Assembly (NCBI GenBank): GCA_021730785.1
Contig: JAKFWF010000033.1
Coordinates: forward strand, 1 to 64,000
Length of the DNA: 64,000 bases
Direction: 5' to 3'
From: Hyphomicrobiaceae bacterium
Lineage (GTDB): Bacteria; Pseudomonadota; Alphaproteobacteria; Rhizobiales; Hyphomicrobiaceae
The notes beneath the pieces were generated by a model. That model worked only from the letters and a program-made list of their open reading frames with translations. It ran no database searches and was not told the DNA's origin. The position numbers and the translations under genes are program-made. Shown piece by piece: positions 45,991 to 57,782 of the stretch. How positions within the stretch are numbered: the stretch's first letter is position 1; every line of letters starts with the position of its first letter.

Positions 45991-47007
45991 TTATTCGCCG
46001 GGTGCAGGTGCATGCCCGCCGGAAATGTCCTTCGGGCGGCTCTTGGCGACCCTGTCGACCCACAGGCTGTGATGCTCACGCGCCCAGTTGAGATCGACGC
46101 GACCTTTGCCCATGGCGTCGAACGCACCCTCCATGCCGACCGAGCCGATGTAGATATGCGCAAAGATGATCGCGACCATGATCAACCCGACGAGGCCATG
46201 TATTACGGTGGCGAGTTGCAGGCCGCCGATGGCGATCTCGATTGGCTTGAACATCATCAGATAGCCCGATACGGCAAGTGCTGCCCCGCCGAGCACGGTC
46301 GACCAGAAGATGATCTTCTGCCCGCCGTTGAAGCGCTCCGCCGGCGGATGGCCAAGCCCGACCAGCCCGCCGCCCTGGGCGAACCAGCGCAGGTCGCGCA
46401 AACTGGGCACGTTGTCTTTCACCCACATCACGAACATCAAGATTATGCCGAGCGCGAAGGCGAAGCTCACGTAATTATGGACGAACTTACCGACCTGCGT
46501 GAGCCCGGTGAAGGCGTCGGGCCCGATGATGGGGAGTAACAGGGTTTTGCCGAACACCAGGTTGAGGCCGGTCAGGCCAAGCGCGATGAACGAGACTGCG
46601 GACAGCCAGTGGGCGAATCGCGACATACTGCCGAAGCGCAAAATCGTCTGACCTGACGGCCCGGTCGAAATCGCGATGCGACCGCGGATCAAATAGAACA
46701 GCGACAGTAGCAGCAGCATGCCGACGATGGCGTAGCCACCGACGGTTGGCAGCGTCTCTTGGCGGAATGTCCGGAACTCCTTGCCGGCCGGCTGGATCAG
46801 ATTGCCTGCGCGCGCATCGGGGATCGAGATGCGGCCCGACACGGTATCCGTCGAGCCGGGCTTGAGGGCGTCCAGCAGCTGCTTTTCCTTGACCGAGCTT
46901 GCCGTCGGGTTGACGGACGTCGGCTGTTGGGCGGCGGCCGGACCAGCCAACAGCGCGGCAAGCGCCAACAGCGGCAGCAGGTGTCTAAGCGAGGTGGTCA
47001 AGGTCAT
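45991..47007 (-). CDS. Formate dehydrogenase subunit gamma (cytochrome b)
   Basis: RFGSMSRFAHWLSAVSFIALGLTGLNLVFG ... KFVHNYVSFAFALGIILMFVMWVKDNVPS. Confidence 0.9.
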   Translation of the reverse strand: MTLTTSLRHLLPLLALAALLAGPAAAQQPTSVNPTASSVKEKQLLDALKPGSTDTVSGRISIPDARAGNLIQPAGKEFRTFRQETLPTVGGYAIVGMLLLLSLFYLIRGRIAISTGPSGQTILRFGSMSRFAHWLSAVSFIALGLTGLNLVFGKTLLLPIIGPDAFTGLTQVGKFVHNYVSFAFALGIILMFVMWVKDNVPSLRDLRWFAQGGGLVGLGHPPAERFNGGQKIIFWSTVLGGAALAVSGYLMMFKPIEIAIGGLQLATVIHGLVGLIMVAIIFAHIYIGSVGMEGAFDAMGKGRVDLNWAREHHSLWVDRVAKSRPKDISGGHAPAPGE

Positions 47008-47045
47008 ATCTGTCTTTCCTGCAGTCAACGTGAAACTCGCATCAT

Positions 47046-47216: not shown

Positions 47217-47813
47217 CTAAGTCGCGATGTCTTCCTTGTAGGCCGTCTTCCAGCCCCAGGCACCGGAGCCATAGCCGCGCTTGGCGACCCGCTCCTTGTA
47301 GATCTGGGCGATGATCTCGCCGTCGCCGGCGAGCAGCGATTTGGTCGAGCACATCTCGGCGCACAGCGGCAGCTTGCCCTCGGCGAGGCGGTTGGCCCCG
47401 TAGGCCACGTACTCGGCCTTGGTGTTGTCGGCTTCCGGACCACCGGCGCAGTAGGTGCACTTGTCCATCTTGCCGCGGGAGCCGAAGTTGGCGGTCTTGG
47501 GGTACTGCGGCGCGCCGAACGGGCAGGCATAGAAGCAATAGCCGCAGCCGATGCACAGCTCCTTCGAGTGCAGCACCACCGCGTCGTCGGTCGTGTAGAA
47601 GCAGTCGACCGGGCACACCGCGGCACAAGGAGCGTCCGTGCAGTGCATGCAGGCCATGGATACCGAGCGCTCGCCCGGCTTGCCGTCGTTGATCGTCACC
47701 ACGCGGCGGCGGTTGATGCCCCACGGCACGTCGTTCTCGTTCTTGCAGGCGGTGACGCAGGCGTTGCATTCGATGCAGCGGTCGGCGTCGCAGAGGAACT
47801 TCATTCTAGCCAT
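47217..47813 (-). CDS. Formate dehydrogenase beta (4Fe-4S ferredoxin) subunit
   Basis: CDADRCIECNACVTACKNENDVPWGINRRRVVTIND...CMHCTDAPCAAVCPVDCF...CIGCGYCFYACPFGAPQYP. Confidence 0.93.
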   Translation of the reverse strand: MARMKFLCDADRCIECNACVTACKNENDVPWGINRRRVVTINDGKPGERSVSMACMHCTDAPCAAVCPVDCFYTTDDAVVLHSKELCIGCGYCFYACPFGAPQYPKTANFGSRGKMDKCTYCAGGPEADNTKAEYVAYGANRLAEGKLPLCAEMCSTKSLLAGDGEIIAQIYKERVAKRGYGSGAWGWKTAYKEDIAT

Positions 47814-47903: not shown

Positions 47904-50897
47904 TCAAGCGGCGCGGATCTGACAGAGCGTCACTTTGCCCTCGTGCATCGCCGTGACCGGATCGAAGCCGTAGGTGGTGACGATGTTGACGCTCTCGCCG
48001 AGCACGATCGGGTCGGTGCCGGCGGGATAGTTCTTGCGCTGGTCTTCGCCCTGGTAGTGACCACCGAAGTGGAACGGCATCCAGGCAACACCGCGGCCGA
48101 CGCGTTCGGTAACGAGCGCCTTGACCTTCACCTTCGAGTTATTCTCAGGCCCGTCGACCCACACCCAGCCACCTTCGACGATGCCGCGGGATGCCGCATC
48201 CGCCGGATGGATCTCGACGAACATGTCCTGCTGCAGTTCGGCCAGCCACTTGTTGGAGCGGGTTTCCTCGCCGCCACCCTCGTATTCGACCAAACGGCCG
48301 GATGTCAGGATGATCGGGAAGCTCTTGGCCACGCCCTTGTCGACGGCCGCCTTCTGCACCGAGAAGCCCGCGTTCAAGACACGGAACGAGCGGAAGTCGG
48401 GCCGGGTCGGATACTTCGCCACGAGGTCGATGCGCGGCGAGTAGATCGGCTCACGATGGACCGGCACCGGATCGGGCAAATTCCAGGCATTGGCGCGGGC
48501 CTTGGAGTTGCCATAGGGTGCGCAGCCGTGGGCGATCGCCACGCGCTGGATGCCGCCCGACAGATCGATTGCCCAGGACACGGTGCCTGGCGTGTTGCCG
48601 CCGATCTTGGTGATGGTGGCGAGTTCGGCCTCCGTCAGGTCCTTGTCCCAGCCGAGCTTCTGCAGCACGGCATAGGTGAACTCTGGATAGCCGTCCTTGA
48701 TCTCTGAGCCGAGCGAGTACGAGCCCTCGGCCAGCATGTTCTGCTTGGTCTCGACCTCGGTCTCGACGCCGGCTGCGTCCTTTTGCTTGGTCTTGATGAC
48801 ACGCTCGGTGCCAAAGCGCGCACGGAACGTGCCGCCGCCGTCCTTGACGTGCAGGTTGGTGTTGTACAGCAGCGGCGAACCAGGATGCTTGTGGGCCGGC
48901 GTACCCCAGCACGGCCAGGGCAGACCATAGTGTTCGCCGGCAATTTCCGCAGGCGCATCGGCCTTCGCCTTCAGGGTCACGATGTCGAAGTGGTCCTGGT
49001 TCTTCATGTGCGTCTTGATGCGTTCAGGCGACTGGCCGCTGTAGCCAGTCGAGAAGCCGCCGCGATTGATCTCGCGCAACACCGATTCGGCTTCCGGCTC
49101 GTCGCCGAACTTGCCTTTCACCAACTTGATGTTCTTGAACATCTTGTCGGCGTAGCCAAGCCGCTTGGCGAGTTCATAGATCGCCCAGTAGTCGTTGGCG
49201 GATTCGAAGATCGGCTCGACGATCTTTTCGCCCCACTGGATCGAACGATTGGAGGCCGTGCGTGACCCCTCGCACTCCAGGCTGGTCGAGATCGGCAGCA
49301 GGTAGGTGCCGTTCTTGCGGCCGGCGAGCGACACGAAATTGGTCGGGTGCGGATCGGCGACCACGAGCAGCTCAAGGGCTGCGAGACCTTTCACCATCTC
49401 GGGCATGCGCGGCACGGTGTTGCCGCCGTGGCCGAAGATGATCGCAGCCTTCAGATTGTCGCGCTGGTCGATCTGGTCCTTCGGCACGGTGACGGCGTCG
49501 AACCAGCGGGTCGACGGGATGCCCGGCAAGGTGCGGAAGTTAATCTTGGTGTTGTTCGGCCCGTCCTTCTTGTCGAAGCGGCTGTCGAGCCATTCGAAGT
49601 CCACTTCCCAGACGCGTGCCCAGTGCTTCCAGGCGTTGTCGTCGAGGCCGTAGTAGAGCGGCAAGGTGATGACGTCGAGGCCAAGGTCGGTCGCGCCCTG
49701 CACGTTGGTGTGGCCGCGGAAGATGTTGGCGCCGGTGCCGGGCGCGCCGACGTTGCCGGTGGCGAGCAGCAAGATGCAGTAGGCGCGCACGTTGGCGGTG
49801 CCGACCGTGTGCTGGGTCGCGCCCATGCACCAGATCAGGGTCGAGGGCTTCTCCTTGGCAAACAACTCGGCGACGCGCTTCAATTGGGCGCCGGGAACAC
49901 CGGTGACGTCTTCAACCGTCTTGGGGTCCCACTTCTTTGCTTCGGCGCGGATCTCATCCATGCCGTTGACGCGTTGGGCAATGAAGTTCTTGTCCTCCCA
50001 GCCGTTCTCGAAGATGTGCCACAACAGGCCGTAGATCACCGGGATGTCGGTGCCCGAGCGGATGCGCACATACTCGGTCGCATGTGCGGCCGTGCGTGTC
50101 ATGCGCGGATCGATGACGATCAGGTTGGCGCGGTTGGTTTCCTTGCCGGTCAGCACGTGCTGCAGCGATACCGGATGCGCTTCGGCCGGATTGCCGCCCA
50201 TGATGATCATGGTCTTGGCATTGCGGATGTCGTTGTAGGAGTTGGTCTGCGCGCCGTAGCCCCAGGTGTTGGCGACGCCGGCAACCGTGGTCGAGTGGCA
50301 GATGCGGGCCTGATGGTCGACCGAGTTGGTACCCCAAAAGGCTGCCATCTTGCGATAGAGGTAGGCGCCCTCGTTGGTGAATTTGGCCGAGCCCAGCCAC
50401 CACACCGACTCGGGTCCCGACTTCTCGCGGATCTCCAGCATCTTGGTCGAAATTTCATCCAACGCCTGCTTCCAGGACACCCTCTGGTACTGGCCGTCGA
50501 CGAGCTTCAGCGGGTACTTTAAGCGGCGGTCGCCGAACACGATCTCGCGGATCGCGGCGCCCTTGGCACAGTGCGTGCCGCGGTTGATCGGGCTGTCGTA
50601 GGACGGCTCCTGGCCAACCCACACGCCGTTCTGCACTTCCGCCGTCACCGTGCAGCCGACGGAGCAGTGCGTACAAATGTTCTTCTTGATGTCGAACGGC
50701 TTGGCGAAATCCATGGGTGTGACGGCCTGTGCCGGCTGCACCGTGGCAGCGCCAAGCGTACCGACGGCGGCAAGGCCGGTTGCTGTTATGCCGGCATTGC
50801 GCAGGAAGGCACGGCGGTCGAGCGGGGCTGCACCAGATACAGTCATGGGTGCCGGGCGCGAGCGGCGGGTGGTCTTATCGAGGCGTTTGGTCAGCAT
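47904..50897 (-). CDS. Formate dehydrogenase alpha subunit, Cys-type molybdopterin/tungstopterin enzyme, Tat-exported
   Basis: Tat-like DRRAFLRNAGITATGLAAVG; CTHCSVGC; active-site region DHQARICHSTTVAGVANTWGYGAQTNS; GGNPAEAHPVS. Confidence 0.93.
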   Translation of the reverse strand: MLTKRLDKTTRRSRPAPMTVSGAAPLDRRAFLRNAGITATGLAAVGTLGAATVQPAQAVTPMDFAKPFDIKKNICTHCSVGCTVTAEVQNGVWVGQEPSYDSPINRGTHCAKGAAIREIVFGDRRLKYPLKLVDGQYQRVSWKQALDEISTKMLEIREKSGPESVWWLGSAKFTNEGAYLYRKMAAFWGTNSVDHQARICHSTTVAGVANTWGYGAQTNSYNDIRNAKTMIIMGGNPAEAHPVSLQHVLTGKETNRANLIVIDPRMTRTAAHATEYVRIRSGTDIPVIYGLLWHIFENGWEDKNFIAQRVNGMDEIRAEAKKWDPKTVEDVTGVPGAQLKRVAELFAKEKPSTLIWCMGATQHTVGTANVRAYCILLLATGNVGAPGTGANIFRGHTNVQGATDLGLDVITLPLYYGLDDNAWKHWARVWEVDFEWLDSRFDKKDGPNNTKINFRTLPGIPSTRWFDAVTVPKDQIDQRDNLKAAIIFGHGGNTVPRMPEMVKGLAALELLVVADPHPTNFVSLAGRKNGTYLLPISTSLECEGSRTASNRSIQWGEKIVEPIFESANDYWAIYELAKRLGYADKMFKNIKLVKGKFGDEPEAESVLREINRGGFSTGYSGQSPERIKTHMKNQDHFDIVTLKAKADAPAEIAGEHYGLPWPCWGTPAHKHPGSPLLYNTNLHVKDGGGTFRARFGTERVIKTKQKDAAGVETEVETKQNMLAEGSYSLGSEIKDGYPEFTYAVLQKLGWDKDLTEAELATITKIGGNTPGTVSWAIDLSGGIQRVAIAHGCAPYGNSKARANAWNLPDPVPVHREPIYSPRIDLVAKYPTRPDFRSFRVLNAGFSVQKAAVDKGVAKSFPIILTSGRLVEYEGGGEETRSNKWLAELQQDMFVEIHPADAASRGIVEGGWVWVDGPENNSKVKVKALVTERVGRGVAWMPFHFGGHYQGEDQRKNYPAGTDPIVLGESVNIVTTYGFDPVTAMHEGKVTLCQIRAA

Positions 50898-50948: not shown

Positions 50949-51158
50949 TCACAGGTAGCGGTTGGTGGCGTAGAATTTCTTGACGTGTGCGCTCTCGCGA
51001 TAGCGGGCTTTTTTCTTGTCAGTGGTGCTTTCGGCGGCCAGCGCCGGGCTCGTCGTGGTGACGCCGGCTGCGACCGTGGCAGCACCTGCTGCCCCCGTGC
51101 CGATGCCTTTGAGGAAGCCGCGGCGGTCGAGGGTGGTGTCGGTCTTGGACTTGGCCAT
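50949..51158 (-). CDS. Small twin-arginine formate dehydrogenase-associated protein
   Basis: MAKSKTDTTLDRRGFLKGIGTGAAGAATVAAGV...YRESAHVKKFYATNRYL. Confidence 0.8.
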   Translation of the reverse strand: MAKSKTDTTLDRRGFLKGIGTGAAGAATVAAGVTTTSPALAAESTTDKKKARYRESAHVKKFYATNRYL

Positions 51159-51175
51159 GTGTGGTCTCCGGTCGT

Positions 51176-51955
51176 TCAAGCAGCGATTGCAAGGGCGCGG
51201 GTTTCGATATCGATCCAGTGCCGGCCGACATCGGCAACGGCACGGTAGAACTTGGCGGACGGGGCAACGGCAATGTCAGCAAACAGTCGCGGTACCCAGG
51301 TCTCGATGTGGGCGGCAAAGAACGCGTCCTGGGCGGTGATCGGCACTCGATAGGTGCCATCGATCATGCCGGCCATCGCGTCAAACAGGGTGGCGATGTT
51401 GTCTTCGGGTTCATGCAATCCGGCGCGACGCTCGATGCCGAAGCGTTCCAGATCCTGGCGGACGGCGGCCAATGGCCGCTCGTGCAGGAAGCCCGCGAGG
51501 TAGAACGAGGCATAGGGCAGCACCTCGCCGCGACCGACGCCGACGAACAGCTTGAAGAACTCTTCACCCGCCCGCGCCTCGGTCGTGGCGCGGGCCGCAT
51601 CGGCCAGCGCGATCCAGGCGAAACCAAGTGCCGAGGCATCGCCGGTGACCTTGGCGACCTGATCGAGCAGCGCCTGCTTCGGTGGCCTGGCCAGCAGGTT
51701 CGCCAGCAGCAGGTAGCCCCTCGCGCGCGCCAGATCGATGTCGTCGAGTTCGACTGCCGGCGCCTTCGGATCATTGAACAGGTCTGGACGCAGGATGTTT
51801 CGCGACACGCCGGTCGCCGCTTCGATGGCCGTGACGCGATCGGCTGGCACGCGCTTCCAGCCGGAAACGGAGGGCTGGGCAATTTCGAGCGCACGGGCCA
51901 GGGCGCCGATACCGCCCGCCGCATCTATCGCTCGCTGTAAGCCTTGATCGCGCAT
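51176..51955 (-). CDS. YdaS/Cro-type HTH fused to TorD-family molecular chaperone domain
   Basis: N-term LQRAIDAAGGIGALARALEIAQPSVSGWKRVPADRVTAIEAATGVSRNILRPDLF (HTH); C-term EFFKLFVGVGRGEVLPYASFYLAGFLHERPLAAVRQDLERFGIERRAGLHEPEDNIATLFDAM (TorD hallmark). Confidence 0.85.
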   Translation of the reverse strand: MRDQGLQRAIDAAGGIGALARALEIAQPSVSGWKRVPADRVTAIEAATGVSRNILRPDLFNDPKAPAVELDDIDLARARGYLLLANLLARPPKQALLDQVAKVTGDASALGFAWIALADAARATTEARAGEEFFKLFVGVGRGEVLPYASFYLAGFLHERPLAAVRQDLERFGIERRAGLHEPEDNIATLFDAMAGMIDGTYRVPITAQDAFFAAHIETWVPRLFADIAVAPSAKFYRAVADVGRHWIDIETRALAIAA

Positions 51956-51972
51956 TCGCCCCTAGCCACATT

Positions 51973-51996
51973 TTTGATCAGTCAATTTGATCAGTC
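51973..51996. promoter_or_regulatory. Tandem operator-like repeats, 13-bp period
   Basis: TTTGATCAGTC-AA-TTTGATCAGTC, ending 17 bp before the HTH-TorD start codon. Confidence 0.55.
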
Positions 51997-52060
51997 GAAC
52001 GGCCGCTCTTGGTGGCGGTGCCGTAGGATCGACCTCTCCGTGCTAGCAGGCGCCGTAATT

Positions 52061-52077
52061 CATAGGAAGTACCTATG
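52061..52077. promoter_or_regulatory. 17-bp perfect dyad
   Basis: CATAGG-AAGTA-CCTATG in the gap between the DUF3306 and HTH-TorD genes. Confidence 0.45.
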
Positions 52078-52162
52078 CGACATAAAACAGACTTGTGATC
52101 ATTCCAGAACAATCGGCCGAGCCCAATCAGTTAGCACATGCAGCAATACTCAGGAGCATGAG

Positions 52163-52819
52163 CTACGTGGGCAACGCCCCGCCGTGACGACGGCGCGTGG
52201 GCTGTTTGGCGAGTTTGGTGTCACGCTGCGAAGCATCTGAAATTTGAGCATTTTCCACTGGCTCCGTGGCGGGCGCTGGTGCATCAGCCGGGACTGGCAC
52301 AGCCAACGCGACTTGCGGGCCGCTGGGGTCACCGGCCGCCGCATGGGTCGTTTCAATCTGTTGCGGTGCAGCATCCTGATCGGATGCGCTGACGGTCGCG
52401 GCGTCCGCAGTGGTGGTTTTTTCTACGAGCACCGTCTGCGTCGCCTGCGCCATCCACACGCTGATGTCGGTGCCCTCGGCCAGATCCTGGAACAACCCGG
52501 GAATACCGCCCGGCGCGTTGAAATCCCACTGGTTCTCGGCCACCTCGACGAAGTCGCGGATCGCCGGGTCGAGCGCCCACATGCGGCGCAGCGCCAGCTT
52601 CTGCAACGCTTCCGGCACGCCCTTGCGCAGAAAGCCGGTGATGTCGCTGTCCACGGTCAGATCTTCGATCCTGGGCAGTTTGGTGAGGTCGACCTCGGGT
52701 TCGGGTTCTGGCGCGGCGGCTTCCGGCGGCGGCATGGGCGCGGTCTTTGGCCGTGCGGCGTCCTGTTTTTGGCGGGCCCAGCGGGTGAGAAACGATTCGT
52801 CCGGCCGGTCATTGCTCAT
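52163..52819 (-). CDS. DUF3306 domain-containing protein
   Basis: MSNDRPDESFLTRWARQKQDA...LTVDSDITGFLRKGVPEALQKLALRRMWALDPAIRDFVEVAENQWDFNAPGGIPGF-like. Confidence 0.87.
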   Translation of the reverse strand: MSNDRPDESFLTRWARQKQDAARPKTAPMPPPEAAAPEPEPEVDLTKLPRIEDLTVDSDITGFLRKGVPEALQKLALRRMWALDPAIRDFVEVAENQWDFNAPGGIPGLFQDLAEGTDISVWMAQATQTVLVEKTTTADAATVSASDQDAAPQQIETTHAAAGDPSGPQVALAVPVPADAPAPATEPVENAQISDASQRDTKLAKQPTRRRHGGALPT

Positions 52820-53319
52820 GACGGCTCCTCGCCGGTCGATCCATCGCGCCAGCGCACGTCGTGCGGACGGTTATCACGCTTGCGCTTGATGATCGGCCGC
52901 TCGACGTGATGGCCGGCGATGAAGGCCGCGACCACGCCCGCGATTTCCACCGGCATATCAACGGTTTCGACGATGTTGTTGCCGGCTTCGGTCGCACCTT
53001 CCCCTTCGGCCGGGTCGGCGGTGACGAGCGCCACGTGAATGGGCGGCGCATCGCCCTCGGCACGCATCACGACCCACAGTTTCGGCGTGCCACTCGCCAG
53101 ATTGTCGCGATAGTTGGCGGTGTCGGTAGAATACAGGCTGATTGGGAATTCACCCGCGTAGAAGCGCGTGGCATCCGCGTTGCCACCGAGCGGGGTCCAG
53201 GGCGCGACCTCGGGTGCGGCGGGAAAAATCGTCACCGGCCGCCACGCGACGCCGCCCCACGCGCCGCTCAAGCGGCGGCGTTCGACGACGAGACCGACCG
53301 TGATCTGCTCTTCGATCAT
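52816..53319 (-). CDS. DUF3305 domain-containing protein
   Basis: ITVGLVVERRRLSGAWGGVAWRPVTIFPAAPEVAPWTPLGGNADATRFYAGEFPISLYSTDTANYRDNL. Confidence 0.85.
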   Translation of the reverse strand: MIEEQITVGLVVERRRLSGAWGGVAWRPVTIFPAAPEVAPWTPLGGNADATRFYAGEFPISLYSTDTANYRDNLASGTPKLWVVMRAEGDAPPIHVALVTADPAEGEGATEAGNNIVETVDMPVEIAGVVAAFIAGHHVERPIIKRKRDNRPHDVRWRDGSTGEEPS

Positions 53320-54338
53320 GCGCGCTTCTCGGCAATGGGGAGTCCGGTGACGAGGTTCTGCGGCTTGACGCGGATGATGCGGTTCGTGGTCATGCCGAGG
53401 ATGAGATAGGTCGGGTGCCCCTTGACGCGATCGAGCATATCGCCCGCATCATCGAACGTCAGGCTGAACAGCGCGACGATGCGCTCACGCCCCTGCTCGG
53501 GCGGCTCATCGCCGGCCCACAGTGCGTTGCCGATGCGCGTGCCCTCCTGGTCGAGACCGGCAAACCACTGCCAATCGGCGCGCTCCAGCCGCTCGATCGC
53601 CTCGACCTTGACGGCGAGGCCATGCATGTGCCGCACCCACCGCTCGATCACCTCGGCGAAGGCGGTCCGGGCGCGCTGGCCGAACCGGAAGTCCATGACC
53701 ATGTGATGAGCGTCGCTGTGATCGAAGTAGTGATCGGCGTTGTCGGCCGTCATCACATCGAGGTTGCGCGCCTTGGCATCGCCGAACACGGCGACCAGGG
53801 GCGATGAATGATCGGTGACGTTGGTGCCGTCGACCAGTTCCTCGTCGGCCAGTAGCATGATGCCGTCCTTGATGGTCAGTCGCTGGGGCCGGAACAGGAG
53901 TTCGGCCGCCCGCAAGATCAAGGGATCAGCCTCGCCATCGAGCATGTTGCGGGCGATCACATGCACCAGTTGGGCGAGGAACAGCGGCGGGACCGCTACT
54001 TTCGGCGCCCGCACCAGCTTCAGATAGGCAGCTTCAAGGGTCGGCGCCGCCAGCAGCGCATCGCGGAAGGACACGAGGAACTGCCAGTTCTCGCGCGCGT
54101 CACGATCGGCGATGTCGCGGATCTCGGCCGGCACAACCGCCGCACGGGGCGTGCGCGCGAGCTTCTGGTACACGGCGCGCTCGACGATGCAGGCGTCGTC
54201 CGGCGGCATGACCTCGGGGCGGGCGAGGTAGACCTTCAGGAACTCGTCAGTGACGATGAGGCGGCCGTGCTCGTCATGGTCGAGCAGATGGTGGCCGCTG
54301 GACAGCCAGAAATCGCGCACATGTTCGTCGTCGCTCAT
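53316..54338 (-). CDS. DUF6352-like protein
   Basis: RDFWLSSGHHLLDHDEHGRLIVTDEFLKVYLARPEVMPPDDACIVERAVYQKL; ATGA overlaps with neighbours. Confidence 0.75.
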   Translation of the reverse strand: MSDDEHVRDFWLSSGHHLLDHDEHGRLIVTDEFLKVYLARPEVMPPDDACIVERAVYQKLARTPRAAVVPAEIRDIADRDARENWQFLVSFRDALLAAPTLEAAYLKLVRAPKVAVPPLFLAQLVHVIARNMLDGEADPLILRAAELLFRPQRLTIKDGIMLLADEELVDGTNVTDHSSPLVAVFGDAKARNLDVMTADNADHYFDHSDAHHMVMDFRFGQRARTAFAEVIERWVRHMHGLAVKVEAIERLERADWQWFAGLDQEGTRIGNALWAGDEPPEQGRERIVALFSLTFDDAGDMLDRVKGHPTYLILGMTTNRIIRVKPQNLVTGLPIAEKRA

Positions 54339-54907
54339 GGTTTTGCCGCCCGCGCCGCCGCGGTGAGATCGAACGTATCGTCGGCGGTCTCCGCGGCGGC
54401 GTCGTCTTCGACCAGGGCGAAGGCGCCGGCACTGCACGGCATGGCGGTCGCCTGTTTGGCGTCGGCCGCGTGAAACGTGCGGAACTGCTCGGAAATGCTG
54501 CCATCGGCGGTCAGCGTGCGGTGGACGGCGACCAGCGTCTGCACCGGATGCTGGGCGAGGCTCTCGGCAAAGGCGATCTCGTCCGCGGCGGCGGCCTGGG
54601 CGGCAGTGAGATCGGGCGCATCGTGGGCATCGAACAGGTGGCGGGCCAGGGCCAACATCGCGTCATGGCGCTCATCGGGTGTCGCCTCGACCACCACCGC
54701 CAACGTCGACCAGCCGAATGTCGAGAGGCCGAGAAAGCCCGAGCGGAACGCTTGTTTCGGCCGCCCGTGCAAGATTGCCGGGTTGTCGTCCCAGAACTTG
54801 AACGTGCCGGTTACCGCCCATTCGCCGGCCGCGGCTGCGCGCTCGAACACGAAGGTGTCCGAGGCATCGAGGCGGAGGGTGCGCAGCAGTTTCGTCGTCA
54901 CAGCCAT
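54335..54907 (-). CDS. DUF6505-like protein
   Basis: LLRTLRLDASDTFVFERAAAAGEWAVTGTFKFWDDNPAILHGRPKQAFRSGFLGLSTFGWSTLAVVVEA. Confidence 0.72.
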   Translation of the reverse strand: MAVTTKLLRTLRLDASDTFVFERAAAAGEWAVTGTFKFWDDNPAILHGRPKQAFRSGFLGLSTFGWSTLAVVVEATPDERHDAMLALARHLFDAHDAPDLTAAQAAAADEIAFAESLAQHPVQTLVAVHRTLTADGSISEQFRTFHAADAKQATAMPCSAGAFALVEDDAAAETADDTFDLTAAARAAKP

Positions 54908-55638
54908 GGGTCACCGGTGGCGGGGTCCAGCCATTGGGGCGTCGCCAGTGCCGCCGTCAAGGGCCGCCGCGCGGTATCCTTGTGGCCGGGCAGTTGTCGC
55001 TCGATCAGATCGCCGTTTTTGTCGATGCGGTGGCGGATGCCGGCCGTTTTCTGCAGGCGCGCGACGTAGCGATCGGCAACGCTGGTGAAGCCCTTGGCGT
55101 TCCAGCCGTCGAAGGCTGCCATCAAATGCCGCGCGAAGCCCTCGATGATGCGGTTGCCGTCCATCATCTCGAAGCCCTCGCTCGCGAGGCTGGTGCCGCG
55201 TTTGAAGCTCGTGTCGGCGGTCATTTCGACGATGCTGCGCACATGCACACCGAGCACGAGCCAGTCGGGCGCCTCTGTCTCAATCGAACCGGGTGCCACC
55301 GCCAACCGGCAGCCGCCGATGATGCCGCCGTCGAGTATGATCGTATCGGGCCAGCCGAACACCAGCGGCTTTTCCGGCGGGCAATGCAGGGCGAGCGCGT
55401 CGGCCGCCGCATTCATGCCGGCGTACAGCGCACCGCGCGCTTCCGCGAGCGGTTGCTCAGGCTCGAGCACCACGGCCGCCTCGATGCCGTCGAACCGGCA
55501 AACCCACACCAGCGTGCCAGCGCCACTGTCCGCTGCGATCGCCTGTGCGTGGCCAAACGCATCGCGGAATTCGCGCAGGGGCACGGCCTGGAAGCCTGGC
55601 GGCAGATCGAGGGCGTGGGGGGCTGCGTGCATACTCAT
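54898..55638 (-). CDS. Biotin/lipoate-protein ligase family protein with degenerate motifs
   Basis: VFGWPDTIILDGGIIGGCRLAVAPGS aligns with the BPL motif KWPND-x-(5)-G-x-K-x-x-G; WLVLGVHVRSI. Confidence 0.75.
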   Translation of the reverse strand: MSMHAAPHALDLPPGFQAVPLREFRDAFGHAQAIAADSGAGTLVWVCRFDGIEAAVVLEPEQPLAEARGALYAGMNAAADALALHCPPEKPLVFGWPDTIILDGGIIGGCRLAVAPGSIETEAPDWLVLGVHVRSIVEMTADTSFKRGTSLASEGFEMMDGNRIIEGFARHLMAAFDGWNAKGFTSVADRYVARLQKTAGIRHRIDKNGDLIERQLPGHKDTARRPLTAALATPQWLDPATGDPWL

Positions 55639-55685
55639 CTTGCACATTTCTATATTGTGGCCGACACAGCGGCAACACTCCTCAC

Positions 55686-57782
55686 ATGAAGTCGCCAATG
55701 GCCACACCGAAATCCGACCCCACGCGAACGATCCTGCTGTGCTCCTGCGAGGGCACCATGCCCCTCGATGCCAAAGGCGTGGCCAAGGGCAGTGGCAACG
55801 TCAAAGTGGTCACCGCGACGCATCTGTGCGGGCCGGAGCTCGATAAGTTCCGTGCGGCCGCAGCGAAAGGCAACGTGACCGTCGCCTGCACCGCCCAGCG
55901 CGCACTGTTCGAGGATGTGGCCGAGGACGACGCGCTGCCAGCCGCCCTCACGTTCGCCAACGTCCGCGAGACTGCCGGCTGGTCGAGCGAAGCGGCCCAA
56001 GCCGCACCGAAGATGGCCGCTCTTCTTGCCATGGCGGCGGTTGCCCAACCGGCGCCGACCGCGGTGACGTTCGAGAGTGCCGGTGTCACGTTGATCTACG
56101 GGCCGGGGCAGGTAGCGCTCGATGCGGCAGCCGCGCTGAAGGATCGCCTCGACCTAACCGTTGTGATGTCGGACGCCGGCAGCGGCACGCCGCCGGCAGT
56201 CAACGAATTCCCGGTTCTGCGCGGCCGCATCAAGTCCGTGCAAGGCCACCTCGGCGCCTTTGCGATCACCATCGACTCGCTCGCGGTCGCCGCCCCCTCG
56301 TCACGGCGCACATTCACGTTCGGCCCGGCACGCAATGGCGCGGTCTCGAAGGCCGACATCCTGATCGACCTGTCCGGCAGCCCAGCCCTCGTCACCGCAC
56401 CCGAGCTACGTGCCGGCTACCTGCGCGCCGATCCGACCGACGCGGCGGCGGTCGCCAAGCTGCTGTTAAAGGCGGCCGACCTCATTGGAACGTTCGACAA
56501 ACCGCGCACAATCGACTTCAAGGCCGAATTGTGCGCCCACGCGCGGTCAAAGAAGGTCGGCTGCACGCGCTGCCTCGATCTGTGCCCGGCCGGCGCCATT
56601 GCACCCAACGGCAACGCCGTTGCGATCGACCCGCACATCTGCGCCGGCTGCGGACAGTGTGCTGCGGCGTGCCCGACCGGGGCCGCAAGCTATGCCGTGC
56701 CTGCCGTCGACGTCCTGCTGCAACAGATCCGTGCCGGCGCCCAGGCCTATTTCGATGCCGGCGGTGGCAGCGGTGTCGCGCCGATCCTGCTGCTACACGA
56801 TGCGGCGCACGGTGCCGCCCTGGTCGATGCCGGCGCGCGTTTCGGCGACGGCCTGCCGGCCCACGTGATCCCCGTGTTGCTCAACGAAGTGACCCAGGTC
56901 GGCCTGGAGACGATTGCTGCCAGCGTGGCCTATGGTTTCCGCGCCGTGCGCCTGCTGACCCGCGCCCGTCCGCGCCACGACATCGCCGGCCTGCGTGCCA
57001 CCGTTGAAACCGCGACCCGCATCCTCTCGGGCCTCGGCTACGGCACGGATGCCGTCGGCATCATCGAGACCGACGATCCGGATGCACTGGGCGAAAGTTT
57101 GCGGATGCCGCGGCCGCCGGTCGCGCCGTTGGCACGGGCGACATTCCTGCCGCTCGGCGCGAAGCGCGATCTCATGAAGCTTGGGCTGCGCGAGCTGCAT
57201 CGCATGGCGCCAGCACCTCAGGCTCGCATCGAACTGGCCAAGGGCGCAGCTTTCGGCGGTCTTGCGATCGACACGGCGAAGTGCACGTTGTGCCTCGCCT
57301 GCGTGTCGGCCTGCCCGGTGAGCGCGCTCGGTGACGCGGCCGACCAGCCTCTCCTGTCGTTCGACGAAAGCCTATGCGTGCAGTGCGGGTTGTGCGTTGC
57401 GACTTGCCCCGAGACGGTGATCAAGCTCGCGCCCCGCATCGATTTCGCAGCGTTCGACGCCGGCCGGGTGACCATCAAGCAGGAAGCACCGTTCCACTGC
57501 ATCAGCTGCGGCAAGGCGTTCGGCGTCAAGTCGACGATCGACCGCGTGACGGCGAAACTGAAAGACAAGCACTGGATGTTCACCGGCGAGAACAGCGCGC
57601 GGCTCGAGCTGATCCAGAAATGCGACGACTGCCGCGTCGAAGCGATGACCAACGCCAAGTTCGATCCCTATGCCGCCAAACCCCGCCCGCCGGCCAAGAC
57701 GACGGAAGACTATCTGAAGGAACGCGAACTGGCCGAGCGCGAAGCCGCCATGAAGGCCAGGATCGACAAAGGCGAAGTGTGA
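55686..57782 (+). CDS. Multi-[4Fe-4S] cluster ferredoxin-like protein of fdh locus
   Basis: CTRCLDLCPAG, CAGCGQCAAACPTGA, CTLCLACVSACPVSAL, CVQCGLCVATCPETV, plus C-terminal CISCGK..CDDCR. Confidence 0.88.
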   Translation: MKSPMATPKSDPTRTILLCSCEGTMPLDAKGVAKGSGNVKVVTATHLCGPELDKFRAAAAKGNVTVACTAQRALFEDVAEDDALPAALTFANVRETAGWSSEAAQAAPKMAALLAMAAVAQPAPTAVTFESAGVTLIYGPGQVALDAAAALKDRLDLTVVMSDAGSGTPPAVNEFPVLRGRIKSVQGHLGAFAITIDSLAVAAPSSRRTFTFGPARNGAVSKADILIDLSGSPALVTAPELRAGYLRADPTDAAAVAKLLLKAADLIGTFDKPRTIDFKAELCAHARSKKVGCTRCLDLCPAGAIAPNGNAVAIDPHICAGCGQCAAACPTGAASYAVPAVDVLLQQIRAGAQAYFDAGGGSGVAPILLLHDAAHGAALVDAGARFGDGLPAHVIPVLLNEVTQVGLETIAASVAYGFRAVRLLTRARPRHDIAGLRATVETATRILSGLGYGTDAVGIIETDDPDALGESLRMPRPPVAPLARATFLPLGAKRDLMKLGLRELHRMAPAPQARIELAKGAAFGGLAIDTAKCTLCLACVSACPVSALGDAADQPLLSFDESLCVQCGLCVATCPETVIKLAPRIDFAAFDAGRVTIKQEAPFHCISCGKAFGVKSTIDRVTAKLKDKHWMFTGENSARLELIQKCDDCRVEAMTNAKFDPYAAKPRPPAKTTEDYLKERELAEREAAMKARIDKGEV

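Follow-up and report, generated by a model that had tools for sequence, protein, structure and literature searches.

How the synthesis of complex exported metalloenzymes is matched to assembly capacity is poorly understood. In flagellar FliT–FlhDC, type III ExsC/ExsD/ExsA and HrcA–GroE titration, the occupancy of a chaperone sets the transcription of its client genes. For Tat-exported molybdoenzymes, the closest described chaperones are the redox enzyme maturation proteins (REMPs) TorD, DmsD and NarJ (PF02613), and feedback on the Escherichia coli torCAD operon through TorC–TorS is recounted in PMC10845959 (describing Gon et al. 2001). Among DNA-binding proteins, YdaS has been argued to be a Cro-like regulator, or Cro analogue, rather than a toxin, and its toxin role is disputed (PMC8630535).

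The window (the whole stretch of 64,000 nucleotides analysed here) contains a formate dehydrogenase (fdh) locus in which a helix-turn-helix (HTH) domain of the Cro/YdaS type is fused to a TorD-family chaperone. Such genes are currently annotated just as 'molecular chaperone TorD family protein'. A non-exhaustive full-text search of the open-access literature returned no description of a TorD–HTH fusion, in agreement with the first-pass annotation of this DNA, which was aware of no experimentally characterised mechanism of that sort in the TorD family. On comparative evidence, we regard it as quite likely that the protein is both an assembly chaperone and a local transcriptional autoregulator.

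An HTH–TorD fusion in the fdh locus

The fusion gene is an intact open reading frame of 259 amino acids with an ATG start and without an internal stop (Table 1). Its N-terminal part matches the models YdaS_toxin (PF15943; residues 6–61, E 8e-14, 51.6 bits against a cut-off of 30) and P22_Cro (PF14549; residues 9–49, 30.5 bits against a gathering score of 30.2), and residues 107–225 match Nitrate_red_del/TorD (PF02613; E 1.7e-28, 99.8 bits against 22.2). All three models are matched by 43/43 members of the family alignment, both HTH models at E < 0.001. In the AlphaFold2 model (pLDDT 87.1), helix 2 comprises residues 16–23 and the recognition helix residues 27–31. Foldseek places the HTH on Xfaso 1 Cro (3bd1; TM 0.79 by target length, rmsd 1.4 Å, 62 columns) and the C-terminal part, which has the all-helical REMP fold, on YcdY, DmsD, NarJ and TtrD (probability 1.00), and a profile of the 43 relatives finds, among solved structures, 3bd1 (E 1.7e-11) and TorD (1n1c; E 1.4e-12). 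The QPSVS of the recognition helix aligns with QSAIS of Xfaso 1 Cro; residue 29 is Ser and residue 32, just after the helix, is Gly. The fusion of an HTH to a TorD chaperone, as the first-pass annotation had read it, is therefore borne out by Pfam, AlphaFold2, Foldseek and family conservation alike, with structure prediction and profile comparison leading from one half to 3bd1 and from the other to REMP chaperones. The protein falls below the equivalog cut-offs for TorD proper (NF003442; 51.9 against 132 bits) and DmsD proper (NF008632; 26.1 against 162 bits), as well as the cut-off for the carph-isopro domain (NF046037; 29.3 against 38 bits), and no antitoxin partner was seen for the YdaS-type HTH as half of a toxin–antitoxin pair. 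In the TorD domain, the nearly invariant EPEDH is replaced by EPEDN (Asn for His at residue 186, window positions ~51395–51400).

Table 1 Features of the fdh locus in the window, with the basis of each assignment.
Feature	Position	Strand	Basis
HTH–TorD fusion gene	51176..51955	-	ORF, Pfam, AlphaFold2, Foldseek
Cro/YdaS-type HTH domain, residues 1–61	51773..51955	-	PF15943, PF14549; 3bd1 by profile and fold
Recognition helix, residues 27–31 (QPSVS)	51863..51877	-	AlphaFold2; covariation of residues 29 and 32
Linker, residues 62–71, low-confidence	51743..51772	-	pLDDT 58 for residues 61–70
TorD-family chaperone domain, residues 72–258	51182..51742	-	PF02613; Foldseek
Operator candidate ATAGG-TACTT-CCTAT	52062..52076	-	121 bp upstream of start codon; comparative
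formate_TAT small twin-arginine protein (MAKSKTDTTLDRRGFLKG...), start inferred	50949..51161	-	TIGR02811, 57.6 against 48.45 bits
FdhA, molybdopterin formate dehydrogenase alpha subunit, presumed client	47904..50897	-	twin-arginine signal
Fe–S subunit (FdhB-like)	47217..47813	-	Fer4 families
Cytochrome b subunit (FdhC/gamma)	45991..47028	-	TIGR01583, 148.7 against 115.85 bits
DUF3306 accessory gene, upstream of operator gap	52163..52819	-	Pfam, synteny
DUF3305 accessory gene	52816..53319	-	Pfam, synteny
DUF6352 accessory gene, start uncertain	53316..54437	-	Pfam, synteny
DUF6505 accessory gene	54335..54907	-	Pfam, synteny
Biotin/lipoate ligase-like gene	54898..55707	-	PF16917, synteny

The fusion gene precedes the genes for formate_TAT, FdhA, the Fe–S subunit and FdhC, all on the same strand, and is separated from the DUF3306 gene by a gap of 207 bp (51956–52162). 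Its assignment to the head of the fdh operon holds for the structural part, which it leads after this gap, but not for the cluster as a whole, as five co-directional accessory genes lie upstream. FdhA, encoded two genes downstream, begins with a twin-arginine signal (LDRRAFLRNAG), and family membership and synteny suggest that it is escorted by the TorD domain. No other PF02613 protein is encoded in the window's genome (99% complete), and the fusion must therefore do the chaperone job, if this formate dehydrogenase needs a TorD-type chaperone.

The same fusion is conserved in ~150 alphaproteobacterial fdh loci, all in one clade, which rules out an assembly chimera. In a first survey, 27 of 60 relatives matched, with 8 fused TorDs besides that of the window and a remainder of mainly unfused TorDs; a scan of named genomes gave 80 loci, all of them fused (80/80), in Bradyrhizobium, Bosea, Nitrobacter, Methylocystis, Rhodoblastus, Mesorhizobium and others, and a further family-wide search gave ~58 fused and 22 unfused. 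Two hits of this last search share contig and position with class-level hits labelled as being of the window's own order, which most likely places the window's genome in Hyphomicrobiales, together with Bosea. Gene order is conserved as DUF3305–DUF3306–gap–HTH-TorD–formate_TAT–FdhA–FdhB–FdhC. The full arrangement BPL–DUF6505–DUF6352–DUF3305–DUF3306–HTH-TorD–formate_TAT–FdhA–FeS–FdhC occupies a single strand in 50 of 86 loci, the others being mostly subsets of it.

Other HTHs are also found on TorD proteins. For example, other YdaS-type HTHs are present at the loci L138/L140 and L137, elsewhere on the TorD tree, and L158/L160 (G298, one draft genome) combine an fdh-cluster TorD with an XRE-type HTH (HTH_31/HTH_3). 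The XRE-type fusion apparently arose independently, and an HTH seems to have been joined to a TorD chaperone more than once, with low tree support for the branching among these other fusions. The transposase-like N-terminal open extensions of L144/L147 are not additional fusions.

A palindromic operator candidate and its recognition code

Upstream of the fusion gene lies a 15-bp palindrome, ATAG(G/C)-N5-(C/G)CTAT, which is new here. It was defined on the first nine fused loci, where it occurs in 8/9, and was found before 0/17 unfused relatives. In a hold-out of 79 independent named loci with upstream sequence, the exact palindrome is present in 51 and a version with one mismatch in 14 more. 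Pooling all fused genes, ATA-N9-TAT occurs within 220 bp of the start in 143 of 147, compared with a single occurrence of ATAR-N7-YTAT among 2914 random 220-bp stretches of the same loci, and the sites lie 47–165 bp upstream of the start codon. Across whole genomes the palindrome occurs 0–13 times per genome, overall no more commonly than a reversed control pattern, so that the target appears to be local; a regulon beyond fdh was rejected, palindrome sites elsewhere being at background level.

Loss of the HTH is accompanied by loss of the operator. In the TorD-domain tree, a single clade (167 rows, support 78) takes in every fused gene of this type together with 19 HTH-less TorDs, and implies ~7 changes of fusion state. 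The operator, or an ATAA..TTAT variant, precedes 144 of 148 fused genes in the clade (one of the four exceptions is truncated at the end of its contig) but none of the 19 HTH-less TorDs nested within it (Fisher 3.6e-22, a statistic not corrected for the tree, on which the co-loss amounts to two well-supported independent pairs). Three members (L213, L207 and L248) have HTHs that look eroded, in which the recognition-helix Trp, the core or residue 29 is lost, and an intact TorD domain; an operator-like site is kept in L213 and the operator in L248, a copy carried on a plasmid of Bradyrhizobium sp. 184.

The sequence of the operator also follows that of the HTH. Three amino acids occur at residue 29 of the fused HTHs, namely Ser, Ala and Thr. 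Of 107 sites paired with Ser29, 106 have G.C at operator positions 4/12; all six Thr29 sites likewise have G.C, and 26 of 30 Ala29 sites have A.T, the remainder being three half-changed sites and one exception. Residue 32 goes with base 5, Gly, Ala and Ile occurring with G, and Asn and Lys mostly with C or T. In a mutual-information scan of all pairs of HTH columns and operator positions over 127 unique loci, residue 29 with base 4 ranked first (0.52 bits) and residue 32 with base 5 second (0.44 bits); the corresponding residues are specificity positions in lambda Cro as well. The window obeys both rules (Ser29, Gly32, ATAGG). On the tree, residue 29 and the operator trait each changed five times, and the switch agrees in 3/3 well-supported independent pairs, a number at which a sign test cannot reach 0.05. 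When the two traits were simulated as evolving independently, none of ~19,700 retained runs had as few mismatches as the one observed. Given that operator bases 4 and 5 change together with residues 29 and 32, the HTH itself would read the palindrome, and we consider it very probable that it binds the site at 52062–52076. The earlier proposals of a DNA-binding regulator, and of action on the 207-bp gap, both gain support from this Cro-type HTH and from the conserved operator within the gap, which covaries with the recognition helix.

Several other elements were observed around the operator. Two exact TTTGATCAGTC direct repeats (51973–51983 and 51986–51996), 13 bp apart, lie just upstream of the start codon, with a third, imperfect copy at 52094–52104; they were rejected as an operator, being absent upstream in the nearest relative (L003). 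Close to the operator, many fused loci have another palindrome, TGGAAT-N-ATTCCA, in whole or in half, for example as the 13-mer TGGAATAATTCCA in L045, L049, L054, L057 and L061, and the gap in the window contains TTCTGGAATGATC as its second-element sequence. At least 9 of its 11 positions match in 44/145 fused loci, 4/63 others and 4/398 random stretches. It is perhaps the box of another regulator; a reading as an Irr ICE iron box was rejected, as the element is enriched but gives no clean ICE match. The fdh operon of Rhodoblastus (G064, L048) has two operator-type palindromes at a spacing of 53 bp. The window's genome also encodes, away from fdh, a stand-alone 80-aa HTH of the YdaS/Cro type (G000 contig C41:34162–34362; L002, L165), 51% identical to the fused HTH, with no ATAGS-type operator before its gene.

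Proposed mechanism and alternative readings

If the HTH binds the fdh operator, the chaperone would autoregulate its own operon, which we hold to be highly likely. The comparative evidence, covering the fusion, the conserved operator, the matching recognition code, the co-loss and the local-only site, points to one protein that probably both helps to build formate dehydrogenase and sets its amount. The N-terminal Cro-like HTH, presumably as a dimer, would bind the palindrome in the gap after DUF3306, ahead of its own gene, and thereby control transcription of the torD–formate_TAT–fdhABC part of the cluster. When FdhA stays unassembled through lack of molybdenum cofactor, Fe–S clusters or Tat capacity and fills the TorD pocket, affinity for DNA would differ from that of the free chaperone, and the altered operator binding would provide feedback from assembly to synthesis, with assembly being read directly via the chaperone. 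A switch of this kind, driven by apo-FdhA or its Tat peptide in the chaperone, had been suggested in the first-pass annotation and is plausible. Dimer binding, repression and an effect of client load on DNA binding are steps that we infer. Putative modulation of DNA binding by client occupancy stands at about even chances, and we offer somewhat more tentatively the fuller proposal that unassembled FdhA in the TorD domain alters HTH–operator binding in a design that arose more than once with different HTHs.

The main alternative, possible though short of an even chance, is an autoregulator that responds to concentration only, in which the HTH curbs the operon according to how much HTH–TorD is present and no client is sensed, the chaperone domain being a mere supplier of dimerisation or a passenger. 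Consistent with this, the linker (residues 62–71) is probably flexible, judging from its pLDDT of 58 in the model, TorD has on several occasions been retained without the HTH, which implies separable functions, and Cro-type proteins, of which YdaS is described as an analogue (PMC8630535), need no ligand. However, ~150 loci have kept the HTH joined to the chaperone instead of using a stand-alone repressor gene, and fusions with YdaS- or XRE-type HTHs occur on other TorD branches; this retention and recurrence suggest that physical linkage is beneficial.

No standard promoter was recognised in the window. Across the family, promoter-like sites, called as consensus matches only, keep to a small number of set distances from the operator in 86/143 loci against ~12 in shuffles, a contrast in which independence is overstated as the loci are related. 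The operator overlaps a candidate -10 in some lineages, a class that arises in part from the TAT arm within the operator itself, and abuts or lies just upstream of the -35 in others. The locus is absent from the main text of the Bradyrhizobium transcription start site and microoxia papers. Net repression of the fdh operon is the likelier outcome, because Cro/YdaS relatives repress and some sites overlap promoter-like elements. Activation of fdh transcription, with the protein bound shortly before the -35 as lambda CI is at OR2, appears unlikely: in one lineage a TTGACC -35 starts on the final base of the operator, and in Bradyrhizobium the operator is 9–10 bp further upstream, about one helical turn, but this geometry rests on the same consensus matches, the site overlaps the candidate -10 in other lineages, and the Cro/YdaS relatives are repressors.

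It is very improbable that the palindrome is instead the site of another regulator, or a processing or RNA element, and that the HTH has a different target or none; the tie between HTH and site is indirect and comparative, but this reading is opposed by residue-specific covariation at two recognition-helix positions and by the lack of the site in HTH-less relatives. That the HTH is a functionless, decayed phage remnant ('bacterial toxin YdaS' as annotated) is most improbable of all, since despite the toxin name in Pfam and the few eroded members described above, the HTH core and recognition helix are invariant throughout the fused family and YdaS itself has been argued to be a Cro-like regulator (PMC8630535).

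Comparison with known systems

A one-protein chaperone-autoregulator with a 15-bp operator and a readable code would be a compact and testable system, present in the well-studied genera Bradyrhizobium, Bosea, Nitrobacter and Methylocystis, and its Ser29/Ala29 code amounts to a built-in specificity-swap experiment. With TorD, DmsD and NarJ, the fusion shares the fold, the family motifs and a place beside a Tat-exported molybdoenzyme; in contrast to them, it has an extra N-terminal DNA-binding domain and a cognate candidate operator at the operon, and it scores far below the equivalog cut-offs of both TorD and DmsD proper. Similarly, it has the HTH sequence and fold of the lambdoid Cro/YdaS proteins (P22 Cro, Xfaso 1 Cro 3bd1 and YdaS) and a short palindromic candidate operator by its own gene, but lies outside a phage switch, linked to a chaperone and on the operon of a respiratory enzyme. 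In FliT–FlhDC, ExsC/ExsD/ExsA and HrcA–GroE, chaperoning and DNA binding fall to two different polypeptides and export does not follow the Tat route, whereas here both functions would reside in one protein. As in TorC–TorS, to the extent described in PMC10845959, an unassembled component of a molybdoenzyme system would feed back on its own operon, through a DNA-binding chaperone rather than a sensor kinase and apo-cytochrome. The fusion may work like the export-chaperone and unassembled-subunit regulators without belonging to either.
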